Source: Microterricola viridarii
GTDB lineage: Bacteria; Actinomycetota; Actinomycetes; Actinomycetales; Microbacteriaceae
Direction of reading: 5' to 3'
NCBI RefSeq assembly: GCF_001542775.1
Contig: NZ_CP014145.1
Span: 2,914,001-2,978,000 of the forward strand
Length of the DNA stretch: 64,000 nucleotides
The position numbers and the translations under genes were made by a program. Each line of letters opens with the position of its first letter. Position 1 is the first letter of the stretch. The notes below the pieces were generated by a model. It searched no databases and was not told the origin of the DNA. It worked only from the letters and a program-made list of their open reading frames with translations. This document shows positions 1,650 to 62,304 of this stretch, one piece after another.

Positions 1650-3035
1650 TTAATCCCGGGTCGCCGCCCGGGTCTCTGCAACCAGCCGGGCGAGCGCGCC
1701 GCGGTCGAGCTTGCCCGACGGCAGGTGCGGCAGCTCCGTGACGGCGAGCAGCTCGCGCGGCCGGGCCGCCGGGCCGAGCGTGGAGGCCACAGCAGCACGC
1801 AGGCCCGTGAGATCGGCGTCGCCGGCATCCGCCCCCTGACGCACCACCACGATCGACTGCCCCCACTCCGGGTCTGGCACGGCGACGGCGACGGAACCCT
1901 CGAAGCCGGGCCGCGCGTGCAGCACGCGCTCGACGGCCTCAAGCGAGACCTTCTCTCCCCCGCTGATGATCACGTTGTCGGAACGGCCGAGCACCCGCAG
2001 TCGCCCGTCGACCAGCTCACCGAGGTCGCCCGTGCGGTAGCGGTGCTCGCCGCCATGGTCGGCGAAGGCGGCTGCCGTGCGCTCAATGTCGACGGTGCCG
2101 TCGGCGGCCAGGTAACCCTCGGCGAGCATCGGGCCGCTGAGCTCGATCAGGCCACCCTCAACATGCACCTCTGTACCGTGCAGCGGGACGCCGTCGTAGA
2201 CGCAGCCGCCTGCCGTCTCGGAGGATCCGTAGGTGCGGGTGACGCGAAGGCCCAGCTCGGCGGCGCGGGCGATGAGCGCCGGCGGGGTCGCCTGGCCGCC
2301 GACCAGGATGCGGTCGAAGCGCTGCGCGGCGGCGAGCACGGCGGGGTCGGACTCGGCCGCCTCGACCACGCGGGCCAGCTGGAGCGGCACCAGCGAGACG
2401 AAGCGCAGCGGCGCGTCCATCCGGGCGGCATACGCGGCGAAGACGCGCGGGTCGAAGTGCCCGGCCGGCAGGATCACCGGGTCGGTGCCGGCGACGAGGG
2501 AGCGCACCAGTACCTGCGCGCCGGCGATGTAGTGGGTGGGCAGGGCGAGCAGCCACTGGCCGGGGCCGCCGAGCGCGCCGGCGGATGCCGCGGCCGAGGC
2601 CAGCAGTGCGTCGGTGCTGAGGGCGACCCGCTTCGGCGTGCCGGTCGATCCGGAGGTCTCGATCACCAGGGCGACCCGGCGCGGCACAAGGGTTTCGACA
2701 GGCTCAACCAGCGCGACGCGCAGCGTCGCGGAAGGCGGCAGCCCAGTCCAAGGAATCCCCTGGACAGTTACCGGTGCTTGCCGGGTTTCGACAGGCTCAA
2801 CCAGCGGAGCTGTTTCGACAGGCTCAACCAACGGGGCTGTTTCGACAGGCTCACCCAGCGGGGAGCGCCGAGTGAGCCCCTCCCGTTGATTGAGCTTGGC
2901 CTGTCCTGAGCTTGTCGAAAGGTCGAAATCCGCCGCGGGCAGCACGGCGGGCCCGTCGCCAGAGAGCGCGGCGCGAAGCGCAGGCAGAACGGCGCCCGGC
3001 GCCGCGCCGTCCATCACCCGCAGTGGCCTCGTCAT
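1650..3035 (-). CDS. menE: o-succinylbenzoate-CoA ligase MenE carrying an in-frame repeat insertion
   Basis: MenE activates o-succinylbenzoate with CoA through an acyl-adenylate. The AMP-binding P-loop is seen as ETSGSTGTPKRVAL (about residues 126-139), followed by YGSSETAGG and the hinge region YRTGDLGELVDGRLRVLGRSDNVI; a C-terminal SGKLDR supplies the catalytic lysine. The 461-residue length exceeds that of short actinobacterial MenE proteins because residues about 37-116 are translated copies of an intergenic repeat (EPVET repeated four times). The frame stays open through the insertion and the domain on either side is normal, so the product may still fold with a surface loop. It lies between menB and menA on the same strand. 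Confidence 0.9.
   Translation of the reverse strand: MTRPLRVMDGAAPGAVLPALRAALSGDGPAVLPAADFDLSTSSGQAKLNQREGLTRRSPLGEPVETAPLVEPVETAPLVEPVETRQAPVTVQGIPWTGLPPSATLRVALVEPVETLVPRRVALVIETSGSTGTPKRVALSTDALLASAAASAGALGGPGQWLLALPTHYIAGAQVLVRSLVAGTDPVILPAGHFDPRVFAAYAARMDAPLRFVSLVPLQLARVVEAAESDPAVLAAAQRFDRILVGGQATPPALIARAAELGLRVTRTYGSSETAGGCVYDGVPLHGTEVHVEGGLIELSGPMLAEGYLAADGTVDIERTAAAFADHGGEHRYRTGDLGELVDGRLRVLGRSDNVIISGGEKVSLEAVERVLHARPGFEGSVAVAVPDPEWGQSIVVVRQGADAGDADLTGLRAAVASTLGPAARPRELLAVTELPHLPSGKLDRGALARLVAETRAATRD
2688..2927. repeat. dispersed palindromic repeat block inside menE
   Basis: The block holds four copies of a TTTCGACAGGCTCAACCA-like unit, a diverged inverted copy (GAGCTTGTCGAAA), and a unit of about 95 bases (2711-2807) that recurs near 27976-28072 with few differences. 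The same core is seen at 17643-17720. Elsewhere in the window these units lie only between genes; here they are translated. Confidence 0.85.
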
Positions 3036-3043
3036 TGCGGGGC

Positions 3044-3955
3044 CTAGAACTGCCAGGGGTAGGGCGACCAGTCCGGCTCGCGCTTCTCCAGGAAGGAGTC
3101 GCGGCCTTCGACGGCCTCGTCAGTACCGTAGGCCAGCCGGGTCGCCTCACCGGCGAACACCTGCTGGCCGACCAGGCCGTCGTCGACGGCGTTGAACGCG
3201 AACTTCAGCATCCGGATCGCGGTCGGCGACTTGGTGAGGATCTCCTGAGCCCACTCCAGCGCCACGACCTCCAGCTCGGCGTGCGGCACGACGGCGTTGA
3301 CGGCGCCCATCTCGTAGGCTCGCTGCGCCGAGTACTCGCGGGCCAGGAAGAAGACCTCACGGGCGTTCTTCTGGCCGATCTGCCTGGCGAAGTAGGCGCT
3401 GCCGTAGCCGGCGTCGAAGCTGCCGACGTCGGCATCCGTCTGCTTGAACTTGCCGTGCTCCGCGCTGGCGATGGTGAGGTCGCAGACAACGTGCAGCGAG
3501 TGCCCGCCGCCGGCCGCCCAACCGGGAACCACGGCGATGACGACTTTGGGCATGAACCGGATCAGGCGCTGCACCTCGAGGATGTGCAGCCGGCCGGAGC
3601 GGGCTGCGTCGATGCCGGATGCCGTCTCGCCCTCTGCGTACTTGTAACCATCTCGGCCGCGGATGCGCTGGTCGCCGCCGGAGCAGAACGCCCAGCCGCC
3701 GTCCTTCGGGCTCGGGCCGTTGCCGGTCAGCAGCACCACGCCGATGCGCGGGTTGACGCGTGCATCTTCCAGCGCCGCGTACAGTTCGTCGACGCTGCGC
3801 GGTCGGAAGGCGTTGCGCACCTCGGGGCGGTTGAAGGCGACACGCGCCACCCGGCCATCGAGGCTCTGGTGGTAGGTGATGTCACTCAGCGCCTCGAATC
3901 CGGGCACCTCGTTCCACTGGCTCGCGTCGAAGATCTCGGAAACCTGGGCAGTCAT
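3044..3955 (-). CDS. menB: 1,4-dihydroxy-2-naphthoyl-CoA synthase MenB
   Basis: MenB is a crotonase-fold enzyme that closes the naphthoate ring of o-succinylbenzoyl-CoA. The 303-residue product has the acyl-CoA oxyanion-hole motifs FCSGGDQRIRG and PGWAAGGGHSLHVVCDL, the family-specific TDADVGSFDAGYGSAYFAR stretch, and the C-terminal REPDWSPYPWQF signature that completes the neighbouring subunit's active site. Length is normal for actinobacterial MenB. It is probably the first gene of menB-menE-menA, with eight bases to menE, and is divergent from menC 36 bases away, so both halves of the pathway share one control region. Confidence 0.97.
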   Translation of the reverse strand: MTAQVSEIFDASQWNEVPGFEALSDITYHQSLDGRVARVAFNRPEVRNAFRPRSVDELYAALEDARVNPRIGVVLLTGNGPSPKDGGWAFCSGGDQRIRGRDGYKYAEGETASGIDAARSGRLHILEVQRLIRFMPKVVIAVVPGWAAGGGHSLHVVCDLTIASAEHGKFKQTDADVGSFDAGYGSAYFARQIGQKNAREVFFLAREYSAQRAYEMGAVNAVVPHAELEVVALEWAQEILTKSPTAIRMLKFAFNAVDDGLVGQQVFAGEATRLAYGTDEAVEGRDSFLEKREPDWSPYPWQF

Positions 3956-10830: not shown

Positions 10831-11668
10831 GAACGCGGGCCCCCTCCATAATGCGGCGACGGATGCGGCCGCTCAGCAGGTCAATACCCACGGTGACGAC
10901 GACAACCACGATGAGCAGCATGCCCACCGTTGACCACTCACGGTACTGGGTATAGGAGGTGAGCATGTCGCCGATTCCACCGACCCCGATGAGGCCGAGC
11001 ACGGCGCTGGCACGCACGTTGATCTCGAAGCGGTACAGCCAGAACGAGTAGAACTCGGGGGCAGCCTGCGGCCAGACTCCCCAGCGCAGCACCTGCATGG
11101 CGTTGCCACCGGTGGCACGGGCCGCCTCGATGGCGCCGCCCTCCACACCCTCGATGGCCTCGTAGCCCCATTTGCCGAGCGTCCCGATGCCGCCGATGGC
11201 GAGCGCGAGCGCGCCGGTCAGCGGGGTGAGCCCGGTGACCGAGAGGATGACGATGGCGATGATGATCTCGGGAACCGCGCGGATCACCGAGAACAGCAGG
11301 CGCATGGCGCCGCGCACGGGCAGCGGCGAGTAGCCGCGGGAGGCCAGGAAGCTGAGCGGCAGCGAGATCAGCACGCCGAGCACGGTTCCGACCCAGGCCA
11401 TCTGCACGCTGCGCCAGGTCTGCCAGAGTGCGTCGCCGAGCTTGTCCCAGTTGGGGTCGGAGAACATCAGCCAGAGGTAGCGCACGATCTCGCTGGGCAG
11501 ATCGGCCAGGCGCGACCAGGTGATGTCGACCGACCACACACTGGCGACCACCAGCACGGTGATCAGCGCGGCGGCAATGGCCGGCAGCGGGCGGCGCGGC
11601 TTGCTGGGCAGTTTCGGCCGCGCCCGCGTGGGCTGCGGGGCGCGGGACGGAGCGATCACGGCAGTCAC
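10820..11668 (-). CDS. phnE: phosphonate/phosphate-ester ABC transporter permease PhnE (second copy)
   Basis: The 282-residue product has about six helices and the permease EAA loop (EAARATGGNAMQVLRWGVWP) that docks on the ATPase. The C-terminal NVRASAVLGLIGVGGIGDML segment is typical of the PhnE family. It overlaps the preceding phnE by an ATGA-type junction and would pair with it as a heterodimeric channel. Use of two PhnE proteins with one PhnC and one PhnD is known in phosphonate and phosphite-type importers. Confidence 0.93.
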   Translation of the reverse strand: MTAVIAPSRAPQPTRARPKLPSKPRRPLPAIAAALITVLVVASVWSVDITWSRLADLPSEIVRYLWLMFSDPNWDKLGDALWQTWRSVQMAWVGTVLGVLISLPLSFLASRGYSPLPVRGAMRLLFSVIRAVPEIIIAIVILSVTGLTPLTGALALAIGGIGTLGKWGYEAIEGVEGGAIEAARATGGNAMQVLRWGVWPQAAPEFYSFWLYRFEINVRASAVLGLIGVGGIGDMLTSYTQYREWSTVGMLLIVVVVVTVGIDLLSGRIRRRIMEGARVREQ

Positions 11669-12545
11669 ACGAGCCTCTTTCTGAGTGCGCCGCTCACCCA
11701 GTCCAGCACCAAGACCACGACAAGGATCTCGAGGATGATGAGGGAGAGCTGGTCGTAGCGGTAGAAGGTGCGCACGGCGTCAATAAGTAGGCCGAGTCCG
11801 CCGGCACCGACGAGGCCGAGCACGGTCGACGCGCGCACATTGAGTTCGAGCACGTACAAGGTCTGGTTGGCGAACGCCGGCCAGGCGTCGGGCAGCGCGA
11901 TCGCGCGGTTGATCTGGGTCTGGCTGGCACCGGCCGCCCGACCGGCCTCGCTGGGGCCAGGGTCCTGCGTCTCGATCGACTCGGAGACCAGCTTGACGAT
12001 GATGCCGACGTTGAACAGCACGAGGGCCAGGATGCCGGGCAGCGCACCGACGCCCACCATGGCCACCAGCACGGCCGCGTAGAGCAGTTCCGGCACCGAG
12101 CGGATGATGTTGAGCAGGGTGCGCACGATGCCCCGCAGAACCGGGTTGGGGTTGGTGAGCCTGGCCGACCAGAAACTGATCGGCAGCGAGATCAACGCCC
12201 CGACGGCGGTGGCGATGACGGCCATGCGCAGCGTTTCGAGCACCGGCTCGACGGTGCGCGGGAAGAAGGACCAGTCCGGGCTGAGCAGCTGCGCGATCTT
12301 GTCTGCGCCGTTGCGCCAGTTGCGGATGATCGCGTCGAACGAGAAGTCGATGCCAATCCCCGGCGACATGGTCACGGCCGTGATGGCCAGCACGACGCCG
12401 AGGACCGCCCACGGCTTCCAGCGGCCGCCCGGCCGCGGCGGGAGCACGAGACGGGGGGCCGCGTCATCCCCCGCGGCGCCCGGGGCGGGGCTGAGCGGGG
12501 AGGGGCTGAGCTGGGAGGGGCTGAGCGGGGAGGGGCTGAGCTGGG

Positions 12546-30963: not shown

Positions 30964-31608
30964 GTGAATGCCCCTGAAGTCCCCAGTACTGCCCGCCGTA
31001 AAAACCCTCTCGCCCGCTGGGCGAACGCCATTGGCTACCTCATCTTTCTCAGCCGTTGGCTGCAGGCGCCGCTCTACCTGGGGCTGATCGTCGCGCAGGG
31101 GCTCTACGCCGCCGTGTTCATCAATGAGCTGATCGGCATGAGCGAAGCGGTGCTCTCCGACCCGATGGACATCGACGCGAACTCGGTCATGCTCGGCGTG
31201 CTCGGACTGATCGACGTCGTCATGGTCGCGAACCTCGTCATCATGGTCGTCGTCGGCGGCTACGAGACATTCGTCTCCAAGATCGACACCGGCGAGTCGC
31301 AGGACCGGCCGGAGTGGTTGAGCCAGGTCAACGCCAATGTGCTGAAGACCAAGCTCGCAATGTCGATCGTCGGCATCTCCTCCATCCACTTGCTGAAGAC
31401 GTTCATCGAGGTCTCCAACCTCGGCGGCAGCTCAGCGCACGGCGCCACCGAGACCTACACCGTGTCCGGCGTGCTCTGGCAGTCGATCATCCACACGATC
31501 TTCATCGTCTCCGCGATCAGCCTGGCCTGGATCGACCGGTGGGGCGCGATGGCCGATTTTGAAGAACGCGAACTTGTAATCGAAGAGACCGAGGCAGGCA
31601 TCCGATGA
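30964..31608 (+). CDS. YqhA/UPF0114-family membrane protein, first of a tandem pair
   Basis: The 214-residue product has the family core: YLIFLSRWLQAPLYLGLIVA, VMLGVLGLIDVVMVANLVIM and GGYETFVSKI, with about four helices and a final IDRWG. UPF0114 proteins are found across bacteria; their function is unknown. GTG at 30964 lies seven bases after a CATAAT -10 at 30951-30956, a leaderless start. It overlaps the second copy by ATGA. Confidence 0.9.
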   Translation: MNAPEVPSTARRKNPLARWANAIGYLIFLSRWLQAPLYLGLIVAQGLYAAVFINELIGMSEAVLSDPMDIDANSVMLGVLGLIDVVMVANLVIMVVVGGYETFVSKIDTGESQDRPEWLSQVNANVLKTKLAMSIVGISSIHLLKTFIEVSNLGGSSAHGATETYTVSGVLWQSIIHTIFIVSAISLAWIDRWGAMADFEERELVIEETEAGIR

Positions 31609-32384
31609 ACCCCGCAACACCCACCCCCGACATCGGATCCCGCTGGACAAACTCCGTCGGCAGCCTGATCTTCCTCAGCCGCTGGCTGCAGGCCCCCCTT
31701 TACCTGGGCCTCATCGTCGCCCAGTTGCTCTACGTCCTGCAGTTCATGGGCGAGCTGCTGCACCTCGCGGAGCACGTCGTCTCTGACCCGCGGAAGGCGG
31801 AGCAGGCCGTCGTCATGCTCGGCGTGCTCGGCCTCATCGACGTCGTCATGATCGCGAACCTGCTGATCATGGTCATCATCGGCGGCTACGAGACGTTCGT
31901 CTCGAAGCTGAACCTCGATGACAATCGGGATCGCCCGGAGTGGCTCTCCCACGTCAACTCGAACGTGCTCAAGACGAAGTTGGCCATGTCGATCATCGGC
32001 ATCTCGTCGATCCACCTGCTGAAGACGTTCATCGAGGTGAACGACCTCGGCGCGGAAGAGGTGGAGAACCTCACCGGCGAGGTCTACTCAGAGGCCGGCG
32101 TGTTCTGGCAGGTCGCCATCCACACCATCTTCATCCTCTCCGCCCTCGGGCTCGCCTGGATCGACCGGTGGCACAACAAGGACGCGGCCCGCAACCGCCG
32201 CCTGCTGATCAAGGAGCGTCAGCTCGGCATCGCCCACCTGGCCGCCGAGGGCGAGGTCGATGAAACCGGTGCCCAGCACATCGACGCACAGGAGCCTGGT
32301 GCCGCATCGACCGTTGCCGCGGAGACCGAGGCCGCCGACACGACAGAGGAGCCCGAGCTCGTCGGAGCCTCCCCCCGCGCCTAA
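31605..32384 (+). CDS. YqhA/UPF0114-family membrane protein, second of a tandem pair
   Basis: The 259-residue product repeats the core of its neighbour closely (LIFLSRWLQAPLYLGLIVAQ, LGVLGLIDVVMIANLLIMV, LKTKLAMSIIGISSIHLLKT). It adds a cytosolic C-terminal tail of about 60 residues, the last 45 acidic and low complexity. The pair probably arose by duplication and may form a hetero-oligomer. It is translationally coupled to the first copy and followed by a terminator. Confidence 0.9.
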   Translation: MNPATPTPDIGSRWTNSVGSLIFLSRWLQAPLYLGLIVAQLLYVLQFMGELLHLAEHVVSDPRKAEQAVVMLGVLGLIDVVMIANLLIMVIIGGYETFVSKLNLDDNRDRPEWLSHVNSNVLKTKLAMSIIGISSIHLLKTFIEVNDLGAEEVENLTGEVYSEAGVFWQVAIHTIFILSALGLAWIDRWHNKDAARNRRLLIKERQLGIAHLAAEGEVDETGAQHIDAQEPGAASTVAAETEAADTTEEPELVGASPRA

Positions 32385-35122: not shown

Positions 35123-35139
35123 TACCGGCATCGTGCGCT

Positions 35140-35806
35140 GTTGGCTTCGGTCGCTGGCGCTCCCTCGAGCCAACGGGGAGAGGGCAGCCCGCGCGAGGCC
35201 TCGATACGCTCGTTCCTCGCTAGTCGACCGACGGGGAGGCCCCTCTCCCGCTGGTCGAGTAGGCCCGCCAGGGCCGTATCGAGACCCCGACACCACCGGA
35301 ACCGAGCCTCGTGCGCTGTTGGCTTCGGTCGCTGGCGCTCCCTCGAGCCAACGGGGGGGGGGGGGCTCTCCCGCTGGTCGAGTAGGCCCGCCAGGGCCGT
35401 ATCGAGACCCCGACACCACCGAAAACCGACACTCGTGCGAGGTCTCGATACGCTCGTTCCTCGCTACTCGACCGACAGGGGCGGCCCCTCTCCCGCTACT
35501 CGACCGACGAGGAGGCCCCTCTCCCGCTGGTCGAGTAGGCCCGCCAGGGCCGTATCGAGACCCCGACACCACCAGGAACCGAGCCTCGTGCGAGGTCTCG
35601 ATACGCTCGTTCCTCGCTACTCGACCGACGGGGAGGCCCCCTCCCGCTACTCGACCGACGGGGCGGCCCCTCTCCCGCTGGTCGAGTAGGCCCGCCAGGG
35701 CCGTATCGAGACCCCGACCCCACCGGGAACCGAACCTCGTGCACTGTTGGCTTCGGTCGCTGGCGCTCCCTCGAGCCAACGGGGAGGCGGGCAGCCCGCG
35801 CGAGGC
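35140..35806. repeat. intergenic array of REP-like palindromic units
   Basis: Three unit types alternate: TTGGCTTCGGTCGCTGGCG (three copies, near 35140, 35320 and 35746), GGTCGAGTAGGCCCGCCAGG (four copies, near 35254, 35375, 35538 and 35680) and CTCGATACGCTCGTTCCTCG (three copies). The last two units share ends in opposite orientation (GGTCGAGTAG / TATCGAGACC) but differ in the middle. A 13-G run lies at 35353-35365. No gene is credible in this stretch. Confidence 0.85.
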
Positions 35807-57060: not shown

Positions 57061-57783
57061 ATGAGTACCCCGACTTCTTTTGACTATGCGGGACTGCGAG
57101 CACTGTTCATCAACTGCACCCTCAAACGCTCGCCCGAGATCAGCAACACCCAAGGCATCATCGACCTGAGCGCCGGCCTGATGCGCCGGCAGGGCGTGCA
57201 CGTCGACCTGGTGCGGGCGATCGACCACGACATCGCGACGGGCGTCTACCCGGACATGACAGAGCACGGCTGGGCGAGCGACGCCTGGCCGGAGCTGTTC
57301 GAGACGGTGCGCGCCGCCGACATCCTCGTCATCGCCGGGCCGATCTGGCTGGGCGACAACAGTTCCGTCACCAAGCGGATCGTGGAGCGGCTCTACGCAA
57401 TGTCCGGCCTGTTCAACGAGGCGGGGCAATACGTCTACTACGGCAAAGTCGGCGGGGCGATCATCACCGGCAACGAGGATGGCGTCAAACACTGCGCCTC
57501 GAACCTGCTCTACAGCATGCAGCACATCGGTTACACGATTCCGCCCGCCGCCGACGCCGGCTGGATCGGCGAGATCGGCCCGGGGCCGAGCTACCTCGAC
57601 CCGGGCTCCGGTGGGCCGGAGAGTGACTTCACGAACCGGAACACCACGTTCATGAGTTGGAACCTGATGCACCTGGCGGCCATGTTGAAGGCGAACGACG
57701 GTATCCCCGCGTTCGGCAATCTGCGGCGCGAGTGGGACGACGGCGAGCGCTTCGGCTTCGAGGCGAACCCGGAATACCGCTAG
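57061..57783 (+). CDS. flavodoxin/NADPH-dependent FMN reductase-family protein
   Basis: The 240-residue product has the flavodoxin-like FMN-binding P-loop ALFINCTLKRSPEISNTQG, then DILVIAGPIWLGDNSSVTKR and YYGKVGGAIITGNEDGVKH, as in NAD(P)H-dependent oxidoreductases that bind FMN. The start is ATG at 57061. No partner oxidoreductase gene is adjacent. A perfect convergent hairpin follows. Confidence 0.9.
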   Translation: MSTPTSFDYAGLRALFINCTLKRSPEISNTQGIIDLSAGLMRRQGVHVDLVRAIDHDIATGVYPDMTEHGWASDAWPELFETVRAADILVIAGPIWLGDNSSVTKRIVERLYAMSGLFNEAGQYVYYGKVGGAIITGNEDGVKHCASNLLYSMQHIGYTIPPAADAGWIGEIGPGPSYLDPGSGGPESDFTNRNTTFMSWNLMHLAAMLKANDGIPAFGNLRREWDDGERFGFEANPEYR

Positions 57784-57801: not shown

Positions 57802-57841
57802 CCGGATGCCGGGGCGACACGTGTGTCGCCCCGGCATCCGG
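57802..57841. terminator. perfect hairpin between convergent genes
   Basis: CCGGATGCCGGGGCGACAC pairs with GTGTCGCCCCGGCATCCGG with a two-base loop, serving the FMN-reductase gene and the lipoprotein gene. Confidence 0.8.
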
Positions 57842-58470: not shown

Positions 58471-59484
58471 CTACAGATCGTCGCCCGACGCCTCGGCGAG
58501 CGCCGGGATCACGGTCTGCTCGAACAGCTGCTGGGTGCTGCGGTCGTAGGCCGCCTCGGGGAAGTAGTGGATCGAGTAGCCGAGGCCGTGCTTCTGGCGC
58601 TCGAGCAGGCGCTCGATCACCTGCTCCGGCGTGCCGACGCCCGGGGCGTCCGAGTGGTAGTTCGCGTGCACGTACTCGGCGGCGGTGTCCGCGCCGACGT
58701 GGCGGGCCATGCGCGCCTCGACGGCGTCGATGCGCTCGGCCACCTCCGCCTCGGTGTCGGCGATGATGGTGTTGAAGTTGGAGGAGCGGGTGATGCTGCC
58801 GAAGTCGCGGCCGATCGCCTCGCAGTGCCCGCGCAGCACGGCGCTCTTATGGTCGAACTCCTCGAGCGTGCCGGTGAAGTTGGTGTAGTCGGCGTACTGG
58901 GCCGCGATCTTCAGCGTGACCTTCTCGCCGCCGCCGGCCACCCAGATCGGGATACCACCCTGCTGCGGCGGCATCGGCTGCACGATGGCCTTGTTCACCT
59001 GGAAGTACTGCCCGTCGAGGGTCGCCTCGCCCGTCGTCCACGCCTGCTTCATGATCTCGACGCCCTCGCGGAGGCGGCCGAGGCGCTCCGGGATGCCGGG
59101 GAAGCCGTAGCCGTAGGCACGCCACTCCTGCTCGTACCAGCCGCCGCCGATTCCCATCTCGGTGCGGCCGCCGCTGATCATGTCGACGGTCGCCGCGACC
59201 TTGGCCAGGTAGGCCGGGTTGCGGTAGCTCATGCACGTGCACATCTGGCCGATGCGCACCCGCTCGGTGACGGCGGCGAAGGCGCTCATCAGCGTCCACG
59301 CCTCGTGCGTGGCCTGGTCGGTGGGGGCGGGCACGGTGTGGAAGTGGTCGTACACCCAGATCGACTCCCACGGGCCGGCATCCGCCGACTGGGCCAGGGC
59401 CCGCATGGTGTCCCAGTGCTCACTGGGATCGATGTCGACGAGGTCATGGCGCCAGCCCTGGGGGATGAAAGTTCCGAATCGCAT
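58471..59484 (-). CDS. LLM-class F420-dependent oxidoreductase (LLM-A)
   Basis: The 337-residue product has the luciferase-like TIM barrel: MRFGTFIPQGW, ESIWVYDHFHTVPAPT, VRIGQMCTCMSYRNPAYLAK, GRTEMGIGGGWYEQEW and IPIWVAGGGEKVTLKIAAQY. These motifs fit F420-dependent members. The substrate is unknown. ATG at 59484 is leaderless with TAGACT at 59492-59497. It was originally divergent from the LLM-B gene; a single-gene island now separates them, starting at its own first codons. Confidence 0.93.
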   Translation of the reverse strand: MRFGTFIPQGWRHDLVDIDPSEHWDTMRALAQSADAGPWESIWVYDHFHTVPAPTDQATHEAWTLMSAFAAVTERVRIGQMCTCMSYRNPAYLAKVAATVDMISGGRTEMGIGGGWYEQEWRAYGYGFPGIPERLGRLREGVEIMKQAWTTGEATLDGQYFQVNKAIVQPMPPQQGGIPIWVAGGGEKVTLKIAAQYADYTNFTGTLEEFDHKSAVLRGHCEAIGRDFGSITRSSNFNTIIADTEAEVAERIDAVEARMARHVGADTAAEYVHANYHSDAPGVGTPEQVIERLLERQKHGLGYSIHYFPEAAYDRSTQQLFEQTVIPALAEASGDDL

Positions 59485-59558
59485 GCTCGGCAGTCTAGGG
59501 CGGCCGGAATAATGGCGTGCTCTCAGGCGCTGCATCCGGTGTGAAACGCATCGGATTC
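59475..59558. repeat. left copy of the duplicated LLM intergenic region
   Basis: It contains the start and TAGACT promoter of LLM-A and, at its right end, a six-codon remnant of the LLM-B start (GTGAAACGCATCGGATTC), after which the island sequence begins. The last 32 bases (59527-59558) are identical to 61265-61296. Confidence 0.85.
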
Positions 59559-59604
59559 GAGTCAGCGATCCCACAGCCAAGCCTGCAAGATCACTCGCTC
59601 TGAC

Positions 59605-61095
59605 CTAATCCGTTGCCGAGAGCCATCCAACTCCTCGCGCATAATTCTTGAGCTTCGTAAGGCAATACTGCGCGACAGTGGATCGGTTCTTCGACTGCAG
59701 GAAGTCCCCCTTGCGATAGGTGAACTCAAAGCAACGAATTCCCTCTTCGGTCGCGATAGACACATCAGGGAGCAGCGCGGGAAGAAAATCCACGGACTTC
59801 TCCGCCCGAATGGTGGGCTGATCGCCTCCACCGAAGGCAAAGCTCGCTTCAAGCGCCTTGCCGAACGCGACATTGAGCTGCTTGTCTTTTGCCCCCTGAA
59901 AGCCGACGTAGTCGGCAAATGCCTCAAATATTTGTCGGGCCTCTTCGGCGGGGTTTCCACGCGTCTCGCCCACGGACCGCTGTTCGTGGGCGAGATGCCG
60001 ACCAAAGTCACTTCTCGTCAAGTATGTAGTCACTTCCGCGGGTGTACGCGAGGCAAGCCCAAGTGAACTAAGCGCTTCTTGAACATCTGGAGGGCCGTAG
60101 CGGCGGAAGGTGGAAAGCGCCAGCGGCGGCGAAATTGAAAACACATGCGCGTCCAGCGCGACGATGGTCTGGACAAGCAGTCCGCGGTGCCCGGCCCACC
60201 ACTTACCAATGACGCTATCGCCGCATGCTTGCAAGAGCGCGCTCGGATCTAGCATTCCGAAGCGCCTACTCGACGTGAGGCTCGAGAGGATGCCGTGGCC
60301 CGACGTCTCACTCACGAAGAGAATCGTCATATCGACTGGCTTTACAGTCTCCCTCTCGAGTGCAAGCCGTCGTTTGTTGAAGTCCAGCGCGATCTGCTTT
60401 AAGAAGTCGCCCAATGATCTAAAGGATGCAGTGTCGTACTCCGCAAGGTCCACAAGGGCCTCCAACGAATCCACTTGGTTGGCTAGCTGGAGTGTCTGCG
60501 CGGCCAAGCCACTCCACGCATCTACGGGAGGACCATCGACCTTAACGGGAAGGTCGAGTGGCACAACCCCGGCGATCTCACGGTACGCTTCCGACATCGC
60601 CGCTGCCTTGCTCTGCACAGTCTCTGGCCAGACCAGTAGTACGCGCTGGCCAATTCCTTGGCGGAGAAATCGCTTGATTTCGCTCACCTCTTCTGCAGTG
60701 GCCGGGCGCCCCTCTCGATGGTCCACATTCACCGGAATAATTCGCGCATCGTTGGACGCAACCTCATCGCGCACAAAGGGCGAAAGTGCCGCCTCAAGGT
60801 TTGCTGCAGAAACGTCGCCGATGAAGGTGAGCGTCTTGGTGAAGGATCTTGGCAAGAACGTCGTGAGGTTCTCCGCCAGCGTTGTTTTCCCGGTGCCTGA
60901 GTCGGCGTAGATGGGAAGGAACAAACCCTCACCGAGAGAAGCGACCGCTTCCGCTGCTTCTTCAAGCACTTCGACCGTGGATGTCGCCGGCGGTAAGAGG
61001 ATATTGAGTACTTCAAGTCCGATCTTTGCCACCAGCGGCTCGTAACGCGAAGGTAGAGATAGCGTGCGTAGCAGGTGTCGATCTTCAGCGGTCAT
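59605..61095 (-). CDS. P-loop ATPase with a possible PD-(D/E)XK-like C-terminal domain (island cargo)
   Basis: No named family was recognised for this 496-residue protein. The N-terminal third is an AAA-type ATPase: Walker A ADSGTGKTT at residues 64-72, a likely Walker B in RVLLVWPE (151-158) and a sensor-like strand MTILFVSET (256-264). The middle is helical. Near the C-terminus LPDVSIATEEG (442-452) then CFEFTYRKGDF (455-465) resembles the P-D ... E-x-x ... K pattern of restriction-type nucleases, though the lysine is displaced. ATG at 61095 is leaderless: TAGGGT (minus strand, 61102-61107) ends six bases upstream. Codon use and GC differ strongly from the neighbours, indicating transfer. 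Anti-phage defence is the leading guess, not shown. Confidence 0.85.
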   Translation of the reverse strand: MTAEDRHLLRTLSLPSRYEPLVAKIGLEVLNILLPPATSTVEVLEEAAEAVASLGEGLFLPIYADSGTGKTTLAENLTTFLPRSFTKTLTFIGDVSAANLEAALSPFVRDEVASNDARIIPVNVDHREGRPATAEEVSEIKRFLRQGIGQRVLLVWPETVQSKAAAMSEAYREIAGVVPLDLPVKVDGPPVDAWSGLAAQTLQLANQVDSLEALVDLAEYDTASFRSLGDFLKQIALDFNKRRLALERETVKPVDMTILFVSETSGHGILSSLTSSRRFGMLDPSALLQACGDSVIGKWWAGHRGLLVQTIVALDAHVFSISPPLALSTFRRYGPPDVQEALSSLGLASRTPAEVTTYLTRSDFGRHLAHEQRSVGETRGNPAEEARQIFEAFADYVGFQGAKDKQLNVAFGKALEASFAFGGGDQPTIRAEKSVDFLPALLPDVSIATEEGIRCFEFTYRKGDFLQSKNRSTVAQYCLTKLKNYARGVGWLSATD

Positions 61096-61215
61096 TGGCT
61101 CACCCTAGCGGGGAACTGAGTTTTGTCTGAATGGAAGCTGTGCAACTTGTCAGCAGCGGCCGCCGCTGATTTGGAGCGCTGTGGCCGTGAGCGCTCGTCC
61201 GCACCGCAGGCCAGG

Positions 61216-61296
61216 CGAATCGCATGCTCGGTAGTCTGGGGCAGGAATAAGCTCGGCACCCTGAGCGCTGCATCCGGTGTGAAACGCATCGGATTC
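61216..61296. repeat. right copy of the duplicated LLM intergenic region
   Basis: It begins with a remnant of the LLM-A start (CGAATCGCAT, reading ATGCGATTCG on the minus strand) and runs into the intact start of LLM-B. The TAGACT promoter seen in the left copy is here CAGACT, as expected if it no longer serves a gene. Confidence 0.85.
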
Positions 61297-62304
61297 CTCT
61301 CCTTCGGGCACTACCAGGCCATCCCCGGCTCCCGCACGCGCAACGCCAGCGACGTGCTGCTGCAATCCATCGAGCTGGCCGAGGCTGCCGAGGAGATCGG
61401 CATCGACGGCGCCTACTTCCGGGTGCACCACTTCGCCAAGCAGCTGGCCTCACCGTTCCCGCTGCTCGCCGCGATCGGCGCGCGCACTTCGCGCATCGAG
61501 ATCGGCACCGGCGTCATCGACATGCGCTACGAGAACGCGCTCTACATGGCCGAGGAGGCGGCCGCCGCCGACCTGATCAGTGGCGGCAGGCTGCAGCTCG
61601 GCGTGAGCCGCGGATCACCCGAGCCGGCCATGAACGGGGCGCGCACCTTCGGCTACGTTCCGCCGGAGGGCGTGGCGGATGCCGACCTCGCCCGCGCCAA
61701 GACCGAGCTGTTCCGCGCTGCCATCACCGGGGCCGGGGTCGCCGAGCCGAACCCGCAGATGACGGGCAGCTACGAGCCGCTCTCGATCGAGCCGCAGTCC
61801 CCCGGACTCGCCGACCGCATCTGGTGGGGTGCCGGCAGCCGGGCCACCGGCCAGTGGGCGGCCGAGCAGGGCATGAACCTGATGAGCTCCACGCTGCTCA
61901 CCGAAGACACGGGTGTGCCGTTCGACCAGCTGCAGGCCGAGCAGATCGCTCTGTTCCGCGCGGCTTGGGCCGAGCAGGGCTGGGAGCGCACGCCCCGCGT
62001 CTCGATCAGCCGCAGCGTCATCCCCGTCATCACCGACGAGGACCGCCGCTACTTCGGCGGCGGCCGTGACAGCGAAGACCAGGTCGGCTACATCGACGGC
62101 GGCATCGCCCGTTTCGGCAAGAGCTACACCGGCGAGCCCGACAAGATCGCGGCCGAGCTGGCCGCCGACGCCGCCGTGCAGGCCGCCGACACCGTGCTGC
62201 TCACCATCCCCAATCAGCTCGGCGTCGACTACAACGCCCGCCTGCTGCAGACGATCGCCGACCACATCGCACCCGCGATCGGCTGGGAGCCGAACCTGGC
62301 GTAG
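61279..62304 (+). CDS. LLM-class flavin/F420-dependent oxidoreductase (LLM-B)
   Basis: The 341-residue luciferase-like protein has RIGFLSFGHYQAIPGSRT, YFRVHHFAKQLASPFPLLAA, TSRIEIGTGVIDMRYENAL, SGGRLQLGVSRGSPEPAMNG and DRIWWGAGSRATGQWAAEQG. The pattern is closer to the alkanal-monooxygenase-like group than LLM-A is. GTG at 61279 is the start; its first six codons also occur as a remnant at the far side of the island. A terminator follows. Confidence 0.92.
   Translation: MKRIGFLSFGHYQAIPGSRTRNASDVLLQSIELAEAAEEIGIDGAYFRVHHFAKQLASPFPLLAAIGARTSRIEIGTGVIDMRYENALYMAEEAAAADLISGGRLQLGVSRGSPEPAMNGARTFGYVPPEGVADADLARAKTELFRAAITGAGVAEPNPQMTGSYEPLSIEPQSPGLADRIWWGAGSRATGQWAAEQGMNLMSSTLLTEDTGVPFDQLQAEQIALFRAAWAEQGWERTPRVSISRSVIPVITDEDRRYFGGGRDSEDQVGYIDGGIARFGKSYTGEPDKIAAELAADAAVQAADTVLLTIPNQLGVDYNARLLQTIADHIAPAIGWEPNLA

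Follow-up and report, generated by a model that had tools for sequence, protein, structure and literature searches.

How can a gene of foreign composition enter the promoter region between two divergent genes and leave both of them intact? The question is raised by a 64,000-nucleotide stretch of the Microterricola viridarii genome (NZ_CP014145.1, positions 2,914,001 to 2,978,000; hereafter the window), in which an insert carrying a single gene for a P-loop nucleoside triphosphatase (NTPase) separates two luciferase-like monooxygenase (LLM) genes, LLM-B on the left and LLM-A on the right. Two copies of the junction between these genes, J_L and J_R, bound the insert. We read it as probably being a one-gene integrative cassette, one of a class of small integrase-less islands that replace the 5' end of their target gene and are moved in trans. 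This reading draws on direct observations, which are the anatomy of the locus, the empty sites of congeners, the recurrence of the same layout at three genes, a crossover stretch delimited at one site and the failure to detect a recombinase.

The two junction copies, of 84 and 81 bp, stand in direct orientation and are identical over their first 16 and last 32 bases, bearing out an earlier account of the window made from its letters alone (the sequence-only reading), which had described two direct flanks of about 80 bases with these identical ends. Over 85 columns they share 83.5% identity (E 6e-16, self-comparison of the 64 kb window) and, since their middles differ, they do not form an ordinary target-site duplication. 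When up to 3 mismatches are allowed, the identical 32-mer is found at two places in the window, against 0.00 occurrences expected from 100 shuffles, and in the 3,689,726-base genome a 161-base query containing the left copy matches only the places of J_L and J_R. J_L is a truncated 5' end of LLM-A, and J_R is the LLM-A promoter and 5' end that lies on the cassette side; the LLM-A start is a GTG at 61279 and the LLM-B start an ATG at 59482-59484. The sequence-only reading was right that both copies retain gene-start codons, but its labels for the two genes were crossed or loosely used: the left copy really ends with six LLM-A codons, and the right copy keeps only about three codons of LLM-B. 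Its description of the rest of the locus holds. Both LLM genes survive in full outside the copies, as intact open reading frames (ORFs) with PF00296, and the insert has one long gene, on the minus strand, a clearly lower guanine-plus-cytosine (GC) content (Table 1) and no recombinase domain. As a control within the same genome (about 1.26 Mb covered out of 3.69 Mb), 18 short direct-repeat pairs were chosen by eye from 102 rows covering 1.18 Mb, the window included, a choice that left out most rows of clustered paralogues or repeats and three rows of the 0-80 kb stretch; J_L/J_R is the one pair whose insert falls short of its flanks by more than 2 GC points.

The state of the locus in related genomes supports the proposal, already made from the sequence, that a foreign segment arrived with its own copy of the attachment region, by way of machinery acting in trans or of homologous recombination. 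In all four congeners searched (G001-G004) LLM-B adjoins LLM-A across a single 54-55 bp junction with no insert, the empty site that the earlier account had proposed looking for; the NTPase has no match in these four genomes, and their LLM-A proteins are 94-96% identical to that of the window. Across 29 loci of other genomes, the congeners among them, no second copy of the LLM-A start lies within 1.5 kb upstream. J_L is closest to G004 (80%) and G001 (79%), followed by G003 (75%) and G002 (74%), and J_R to G003 and G002 (83% each), followed by G004 (79%) and G001 (74%). G004 and G001 are also the closest congeners by the flanking LLM-B gene (95-96% DNA identity). These identities suggest, by small margins, that J_L is native and that J_R comes from another lineage. 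With J_L nearest to the closest congeners and J_R to the distant ones, LLM-A is favoured as the target; the reverse polarity, with LLM-B as the target, is disfavoured by the same comparison, again by small margins.

As an observation apart, LLM-A is split at another site, near codon 83, by larger islands in G055 (L162), G129 (L164), G139 (L165) and G088 (L166). Five codon-83 islands were compared, and in four of them, that of G055 included, a serine recombinase is 76-100% identical to G055's; the fifth, L163, has masked stretches.

In the cassette reading, the element would have entered as a circle holding the NTPase gene together with a substitute for the promoter and first codons of LLM-A. 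A single conservative crossover between this substitute and the host LLM-A 5' end would open the circle into the chromosome, leaving the native promoter and the first six LLM-A codons upstream as the truncated J_L while LLM-A gained the promoter and start of the cassette, J_R. Because LLM-A would receive its substitute start from the cassette, neither LLM gene would be broken. The mover would be a site-specific recombinase, most likely of the tyrosine type, supplied in trans by a phage, plasmid or integrative and conjugative element (ICE) since lost.

Table 1. Features of the LLM-B/LLM-A locus in the window (position 1 is its first base)
Feature	Position	Strand	Content or basis
LLM-B, luciferase-like monooxygenase, left host gene, intact	58471..59484	-	ORF, shorter start chosen; PF00296 E 3.5e-51
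J_L, left junction copy (attL-like)	59475..59558	.	LLM-B start, intergenic DNA and first six LLM-A codons
32 bp identical stretch, left copy; likely crossover region (inferred)	59527..59558	+	
Cassette body, 1657 bp, GC 0.581 vs 0.683 in the flanks	59559..61215	.	Missing in 4/4 congeners
Cargo gene, 496-aa P-loop NTPase	59605..61095	-	ORF; weak AAA-type Pfam matches; homologues
J_R, right junction copy (attR-like)	61216..61296	.	Three LLM-B codons, intergenic DNA and LLM-A start
32 bp identical stretch, right copy; likely crossover region (inferred)	61265..61296	+	
LLM-A, luciferase-like monooxygenase, right host gene, likely target, intact	61279..62304	+	Shorter-start ORF; PF00296 E 1.2e-26

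The same anatomy, a truncated 5' end of the target gene, then cargo, then the intact gene with a diverged start borne by the cassette, recurs elsewhere. In total, 7 genomes contain 11 such cassettes, distributed over 3 target genes, namely LLM-A, yajQ (in Agrococcus) and a repair gene of the HhH-GPD family (in Cellulomonas relatives); the genomes are that of the window (G000), Agrococcus lahaulensis (G324), Cellulomonas triticagri (G472), G360, G468, G473 and G488. As we cut them, the cassettes measure 0.7-2.5 kb, and all 11 have a GC content 5-16 points below the flanks of their own array. By our own gene calls most hold one clear long ORF, and those of A. lahaulensis and G473 and the second of G488 hold two or three. 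Tandem arrays are found in G468 (three cassettes), C. triticagri (two) and G488 (two).

At yajQ, A. lahaulensis has a homologue of the NTPase between a truncated yajQ start and a full yajQ with a diverged start. Extra truncated yajQ starts occur in 3 of 21 loci, with one cassette in A. lahaulensis, one in G360 and three in tandem in G468; four of these 21 stretches are short (2.5-5.8 kb, contig end), and in L091 the gene's own start falls below the cut-off. At the HhH-GPD gene, C. triticagri carries two tandem cassettes, one with the NTPase and the other with a 296-aa protein. Among the matches listed from a search of 198 relatives (141 with a match at E <=0.1, weak ones included), at least three genomes have truncated HhH-GPD starts upstream: two in C. 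triticagri, one in G473 and two in G488. The slots that hold NTPase homologues at yajQ and HhH-GPD also hold other cargo. The sequence-only reading had proposed looking for other cargo genes between the same repeats; none was seen at LLM-A in the 29 loci, and it is at these two other genes that such cargo came to light. As for the content of the yajQ sites, those of G360 (L075) and G468 (L082) have a 191-aa cargo family in common, and the cassettes of A. lahaulensis (L037) and G468 (L082) share a 132-base stretch.

The exchange point can be delimited in G473 by comparison with the empty site of G552. Between -400 and +95 the truncated HhH-GPD copy of G473 follows G552 with 2 mismatches, and the full gene of G473 is foreign up to +56 and matches G552 from +57 to +399 with 5 mismatches; the exchange therefore took place inside a shared stretch of 39 bp, with zero host bases lost. 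The truncated yajQ copies diverge shortly after the same TTCGAYG core, and GGTCGAC lies 10 bases past this core in four of five left ends, with a variant in the fifth. At the HhH-GPD site a left-end motif of 30-31 bp, 87% identical, is found in the second cassette of C. triticagri, in that of G473 and in the second of G488; the cargo of the latter two is related to each other and unrelated to that of the C. triticagri cassette. Used as a pattern, this motif matched 3 of 198 genomes, a circular result for those 3 and an informative one for the remaining 195. A strict pattern for the yajQ end gave 5 matches in 398 family genomes, with A. lahaulensis the sole known cassette among them, and missed G360, whose end deviates. 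In viral contigs the left-end motifs had 0 matches.

Judging from these alignments, 5' coding sequence and promoter appear to have been replaced at LLM-A, at yajQ and at the G473 gene. The cassette-borne yajQ start has one extra codon in the three cassette genomes, and the HhH-GPD start reads DFFALL in C. triticagri and G473, the remaining 28 of the 30 read having DPFALL. Native-like starts are kept by the present gene of G488 and by one inner yajQ copy of G468.

The cargo itself gives few clues to its role. The NTPase has a Walker A motif (GTGKTT, residues 67-72), and its Pfam matches are weak and AAA-type, AAA_22 staying below the cut-off (E 0.0022). Structure prediction on three sequences was poor (mean predicted local distance difference test score, pLDDT, 44.7), and a profile search of solved structures returned two weak MinD P-loop matches (E 0.2 and 0.31). 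The protein also has a conserved C-terminal D...EFTYRK stretch, which we take to recall PD-(D/E)XK nucleases. The window NTPase matched 0 PADLOC families, and its C. triticagri homologue one, weakly (PDC-S73, E 0.0042). Elsewhere, a G488 cassette encodes a CAP12/Pycsar TIR domain (PF10137, E 2.7e-13), a sub-threshold Abi_C match (E 0.11) is present in a G473 protein and a sub-threshold PadR match (E 0.0047) in another, and the remaining scanned cargo proteins have no convincing named domain. An anti-phage role of the cargo is a guess.

Searches for the NTPase gave 3 matches in 398 family genomes (the window genome, A. lahaulensis at 61% and G013 at 25%), 3 in 149 relatives and 2 in 325 class genomes (the window genome and G704). 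An alignment-based scan of genome contigs found it in C. triticagri (66%) and A. lahaulensis (61%), an earlier scan without alignment having given zero matches; it has no match in plasmid or phage records and none that was confirmed in viral contigs. Remote homologues, at 25%, are those of G013 and G103. Four NTPase genes, counting that of the window, exceed 40% identity, and three of them lie in small 5'-end cassettes, at three different genes.

What could move such cassettes? No recombinase homologue was found in or near them in 122 loci searched with 25 tyrosine and 1 serine recombinase queries chosen by motif, a search that would miss a very diverged recombinase. It includes the 27 loci of an earlier one, whose query set held some wrong-frame ORFs. 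The sole match in the 122 loci is a tyrosine recombinase of G464, upstream of the 3' end of a tRNA-Tyr gene near yajQ. At the genome scale, two strong tyrosine-recombinase matches, which we read as XerC and XerD, are present in 13 of 13 genomes searched, a set that has the cassette genomes G000, G324, G360, G468 and G472 in it and G473 and G488 outside it. A search of 13 genomes including all seven cassette genomes gave one serine-recombinase match each in G360, G468 and C. triticagri, and none in the window genome, A. lahaulensis, G473 or G488. The window genome has a third tyrosine recombinase, a 284-aa phage-type integrase beside a tRNA-Arg gene, with an M23 peptidase gene nearby (2973-3827 of L239, G000:C1:1004000-1011000). 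From these searches, therefore, the mover is absent, supplied from outside or Xer itself, or else general homologous recombination does the work.

A further clue to the source of a recombinase comes from G704, whose NTPase (43.6% identical over 486 residues) is carried by what looks, from its gene content, like a pSAM2-like integrative element. This element has a RepSA gene (PF20199, E 4.9e-99), an FtsK-type gene (PF01580, E 3.7e-9) and, read by eye, a 447-aa tyrosine-integrase-like ORF beside tRNA-Ser. The nearest repeat enclosing the NTPase is a direct repeat of 241 bases, 80% identical, formed by the 5' part of RepSA. In L175 the full RepSA (630-2315) and a broken copy (~11433-11704) are 9.1 kb apart, with the NTPase, the FtsK-type gene and others in between, and at 2045-3800 two shorter truncated RepSA starts (~3026 and 3423) alternate with small membrane-protein-like ORFs. 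The truncated RepSA starts fuse directly to sequence resembling the end of the neighbouring FtsK-type gene. These RepSA copies are possibly an array of the same kind or a tandem duplication, and their form is more like the latter. With an NTPase homologue on an integrase-bearing element, the cargo family is one that travels on mobile elements, and pSAM2-like elements become a candidate source of the recombinase because one of them carries such a homologue. The G704 locus lends some support to element-borne movement and to duplication by recombination alike.

These results also bear on other explanations. The insert could descend from a larger integrase-bearing island at LLM-A that was reduced to one cargo gene, as a cis-mobilizable element (CIME) that is now immobile or mobilised in cis. 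Being an account of origin, this explanation overlaps the cassette reading, and the probabilities we attach to the two are not shares of a single whole; we consider it possible, though doubtful. CIMEs are described as keeping att sites and losing recombination genes (PMC7563491, available in part), and the NTPase homologue on the integrase-bearing G704 element fits such an ancestry. No integrase-bearing parent, however, stands at any of the three gene starts in the loci fetched, the small size of all 11 cassettes is unlike random decay, and homologous cargo at three genes requires movement.

Alternatively, a circle or a linear fragment from a relative with the same junction may have been integrated Campbell-style by RecA-type recombination or phage annealing, a site-specific recombinase playing no part. 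J_L and J_R indeed differ as copies from separate lineages would, no recombinase was detected, the crossover falls in identical DNA both here (32 bp) and in G473 (39 bp), and the RepSA starts of G704, with their fusion to the FtsK end, suggest tandem duplication of a junction. We nevertheless find homologous recombination unlikely, as the identical stretches are short and their surroundings only 75-84% identical, cassettes with different cargo depart from the target gene at the same point, some of them share end motifs, and tandem accretion takes place at the same target point.

If the junction had been duplicated locally in tandem and a gene then trapped by chance between the two copies, its presence twice would be accounted for, but this is very improbable given that J_R resembles another lineage more than J_L does and that other genera show the same layout around homologous cargo. 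The flanking direct repeats might also evoke transposition that duplicated a long target site. This is barely credible: copies just 84% identical already contradict it and, with no transposase in the insert, rule out a transposon target-site duplication, and the repeats consist of target-gene sequence and vary by site.

The reading that we prefer, a cassette moved in trans, has a number of points against it. Neither a recombinase nor an autonomous element turned up at the three target sites in the loci fetched. A. lahaulensis has only the two Xer-like tyrosine recombinases and zero serine recombinases, and the extra tyrosine recombinases of the window genome, G360, G468 and C. triticagri show no more than about 30% identity from one genome to another. 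Each site has its own end motifs, so that no single recognition sequence unites the sites; the left-end motif of HhH-GPD is present in 3 of 5 left ends only, and native yajQ also has GGTCGAC nearby, at a spacing of five. The extra yajQ codon may be native in other families, since seven order-level matches also align from residue 1. The same anatomy had been predicted beforehand for G704, and the NTPase there does not lie in a small 5'-end cassette. In the window, the assignment of J_L and J_R rests on 4-9 identity points over 53-56 bp, and the site is one occupied example.

Other repeats of the window concern different places. A perfect 19-base inverted repeat at 57802-57841, right after a gene ending at 57783, is terminator-like. 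An adjacent direct duplication of 0.53 kb with 76% identity (31013-32171) probably represents paralogous genes, and direct repeats of 60-250 bp, 79-96% identical, cluster at 35131-35806.

Several known systems share part of this anatomy. The dusA element IMEVchUSA3 and the prfC element SXT enter a gene at its 5' end and restore to it a promoter and a diverged in-frame N-terminus; for the dusA element, the N-terminus is 61% identical over 35 residues and the imperfect repeat is 21 bp long (PMC8409611, in the part of the text available). The cassettes would, like them, give the target gene a new promoter and 5' coding sequence. They differ in that the dusA and prfC elements, going by the same partial text, are ~23-37 kb long with an integrase of their own, whereas the cassettes are of 0.7-2.5 kb, have none detected and use other target genes.

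According to the available portion of PMC7563491, CIMEs are att-bounded, lack recombination genes, accrete in tandem and measure 1.2-13 kb, with microCIMEs of 130-220 bp; they are defined as decayed ICEs or integrative mobilizable elements (IMEs), detectable only beside ICEs or IMEs, and their composites lie at gene 3' ends. The window cassette and the 10 others are similarly bounded by two copies that resemble recombination sites, and the window cassette, with its one cargo gene, has no recombinase or transfer domain. In the other cassettes no homologue of the 26 recombinase queries was found, and relaxases were sought solely by Pfam scans of 8 long ORFs. Unlike CIMEs as that portion describes them, the cassettes lie at 5' ends, have no autonomous neighbour that we could see and hold one to three long ORFs. 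In anatomy they appear CIME-like, and an ICE or IME is a candidate ancestor.

The tandem islands at Dehalococcoides ssrA have direct repeats of their target gene at both ends; 15 of them have no integration module, and these were suggested to be cis-mobilizable (PMC3146451, available in part). They differ, as far as that part of the source goes, in occupying the 3' end of a transfer-messenger RNA gene and in having serine recombinases on sister islands. The pSAM2-like element of G704 has a 44% identical NTPase in common with the window cassette and differs by its RepSA, FtsK-type and integrase-like genes.

Replacement of gene 5' ends and integrase-less islands are each already known, and their combination looks new: no such cassettes at these target genes are described in the titles and abstract openings of the literature searched, most subscription papers lying outside it. 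The locus in the window illustrates the entry of a cassette into the promoter region shared by two divergent genes, with neither disrupted. Going further, we put forward, tentatively and as the less probable view, that Actinobacteria host a distributed system of recombinase-free cassettes, each joining a small cargo to a substitute 5' end of a housekeeping gene, accreting in tandem, swapping cargo between targets and moved in trans. Their small size and content mean that integrase-led island finders likely miss such elements, so that current surveys may be blind to a layer of gene exchange in which defence genes possibly take part. The end sequences offer a direct means of finding more of them, and the arrays a system in which to seek the missing recombinase. 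Integron cassettes and CALIN arrays (clusters of attC sites lacking integron integrases) are likewise small tandem units without an adjacent recombinase; unlike theirs, the shared ends here are the 5' ends of target genes. If the proposal of a distributed system is true, these cassettes would follow an integron-like economy without an integron integrase, with units that often consist of one gene and are possibly related to defence.

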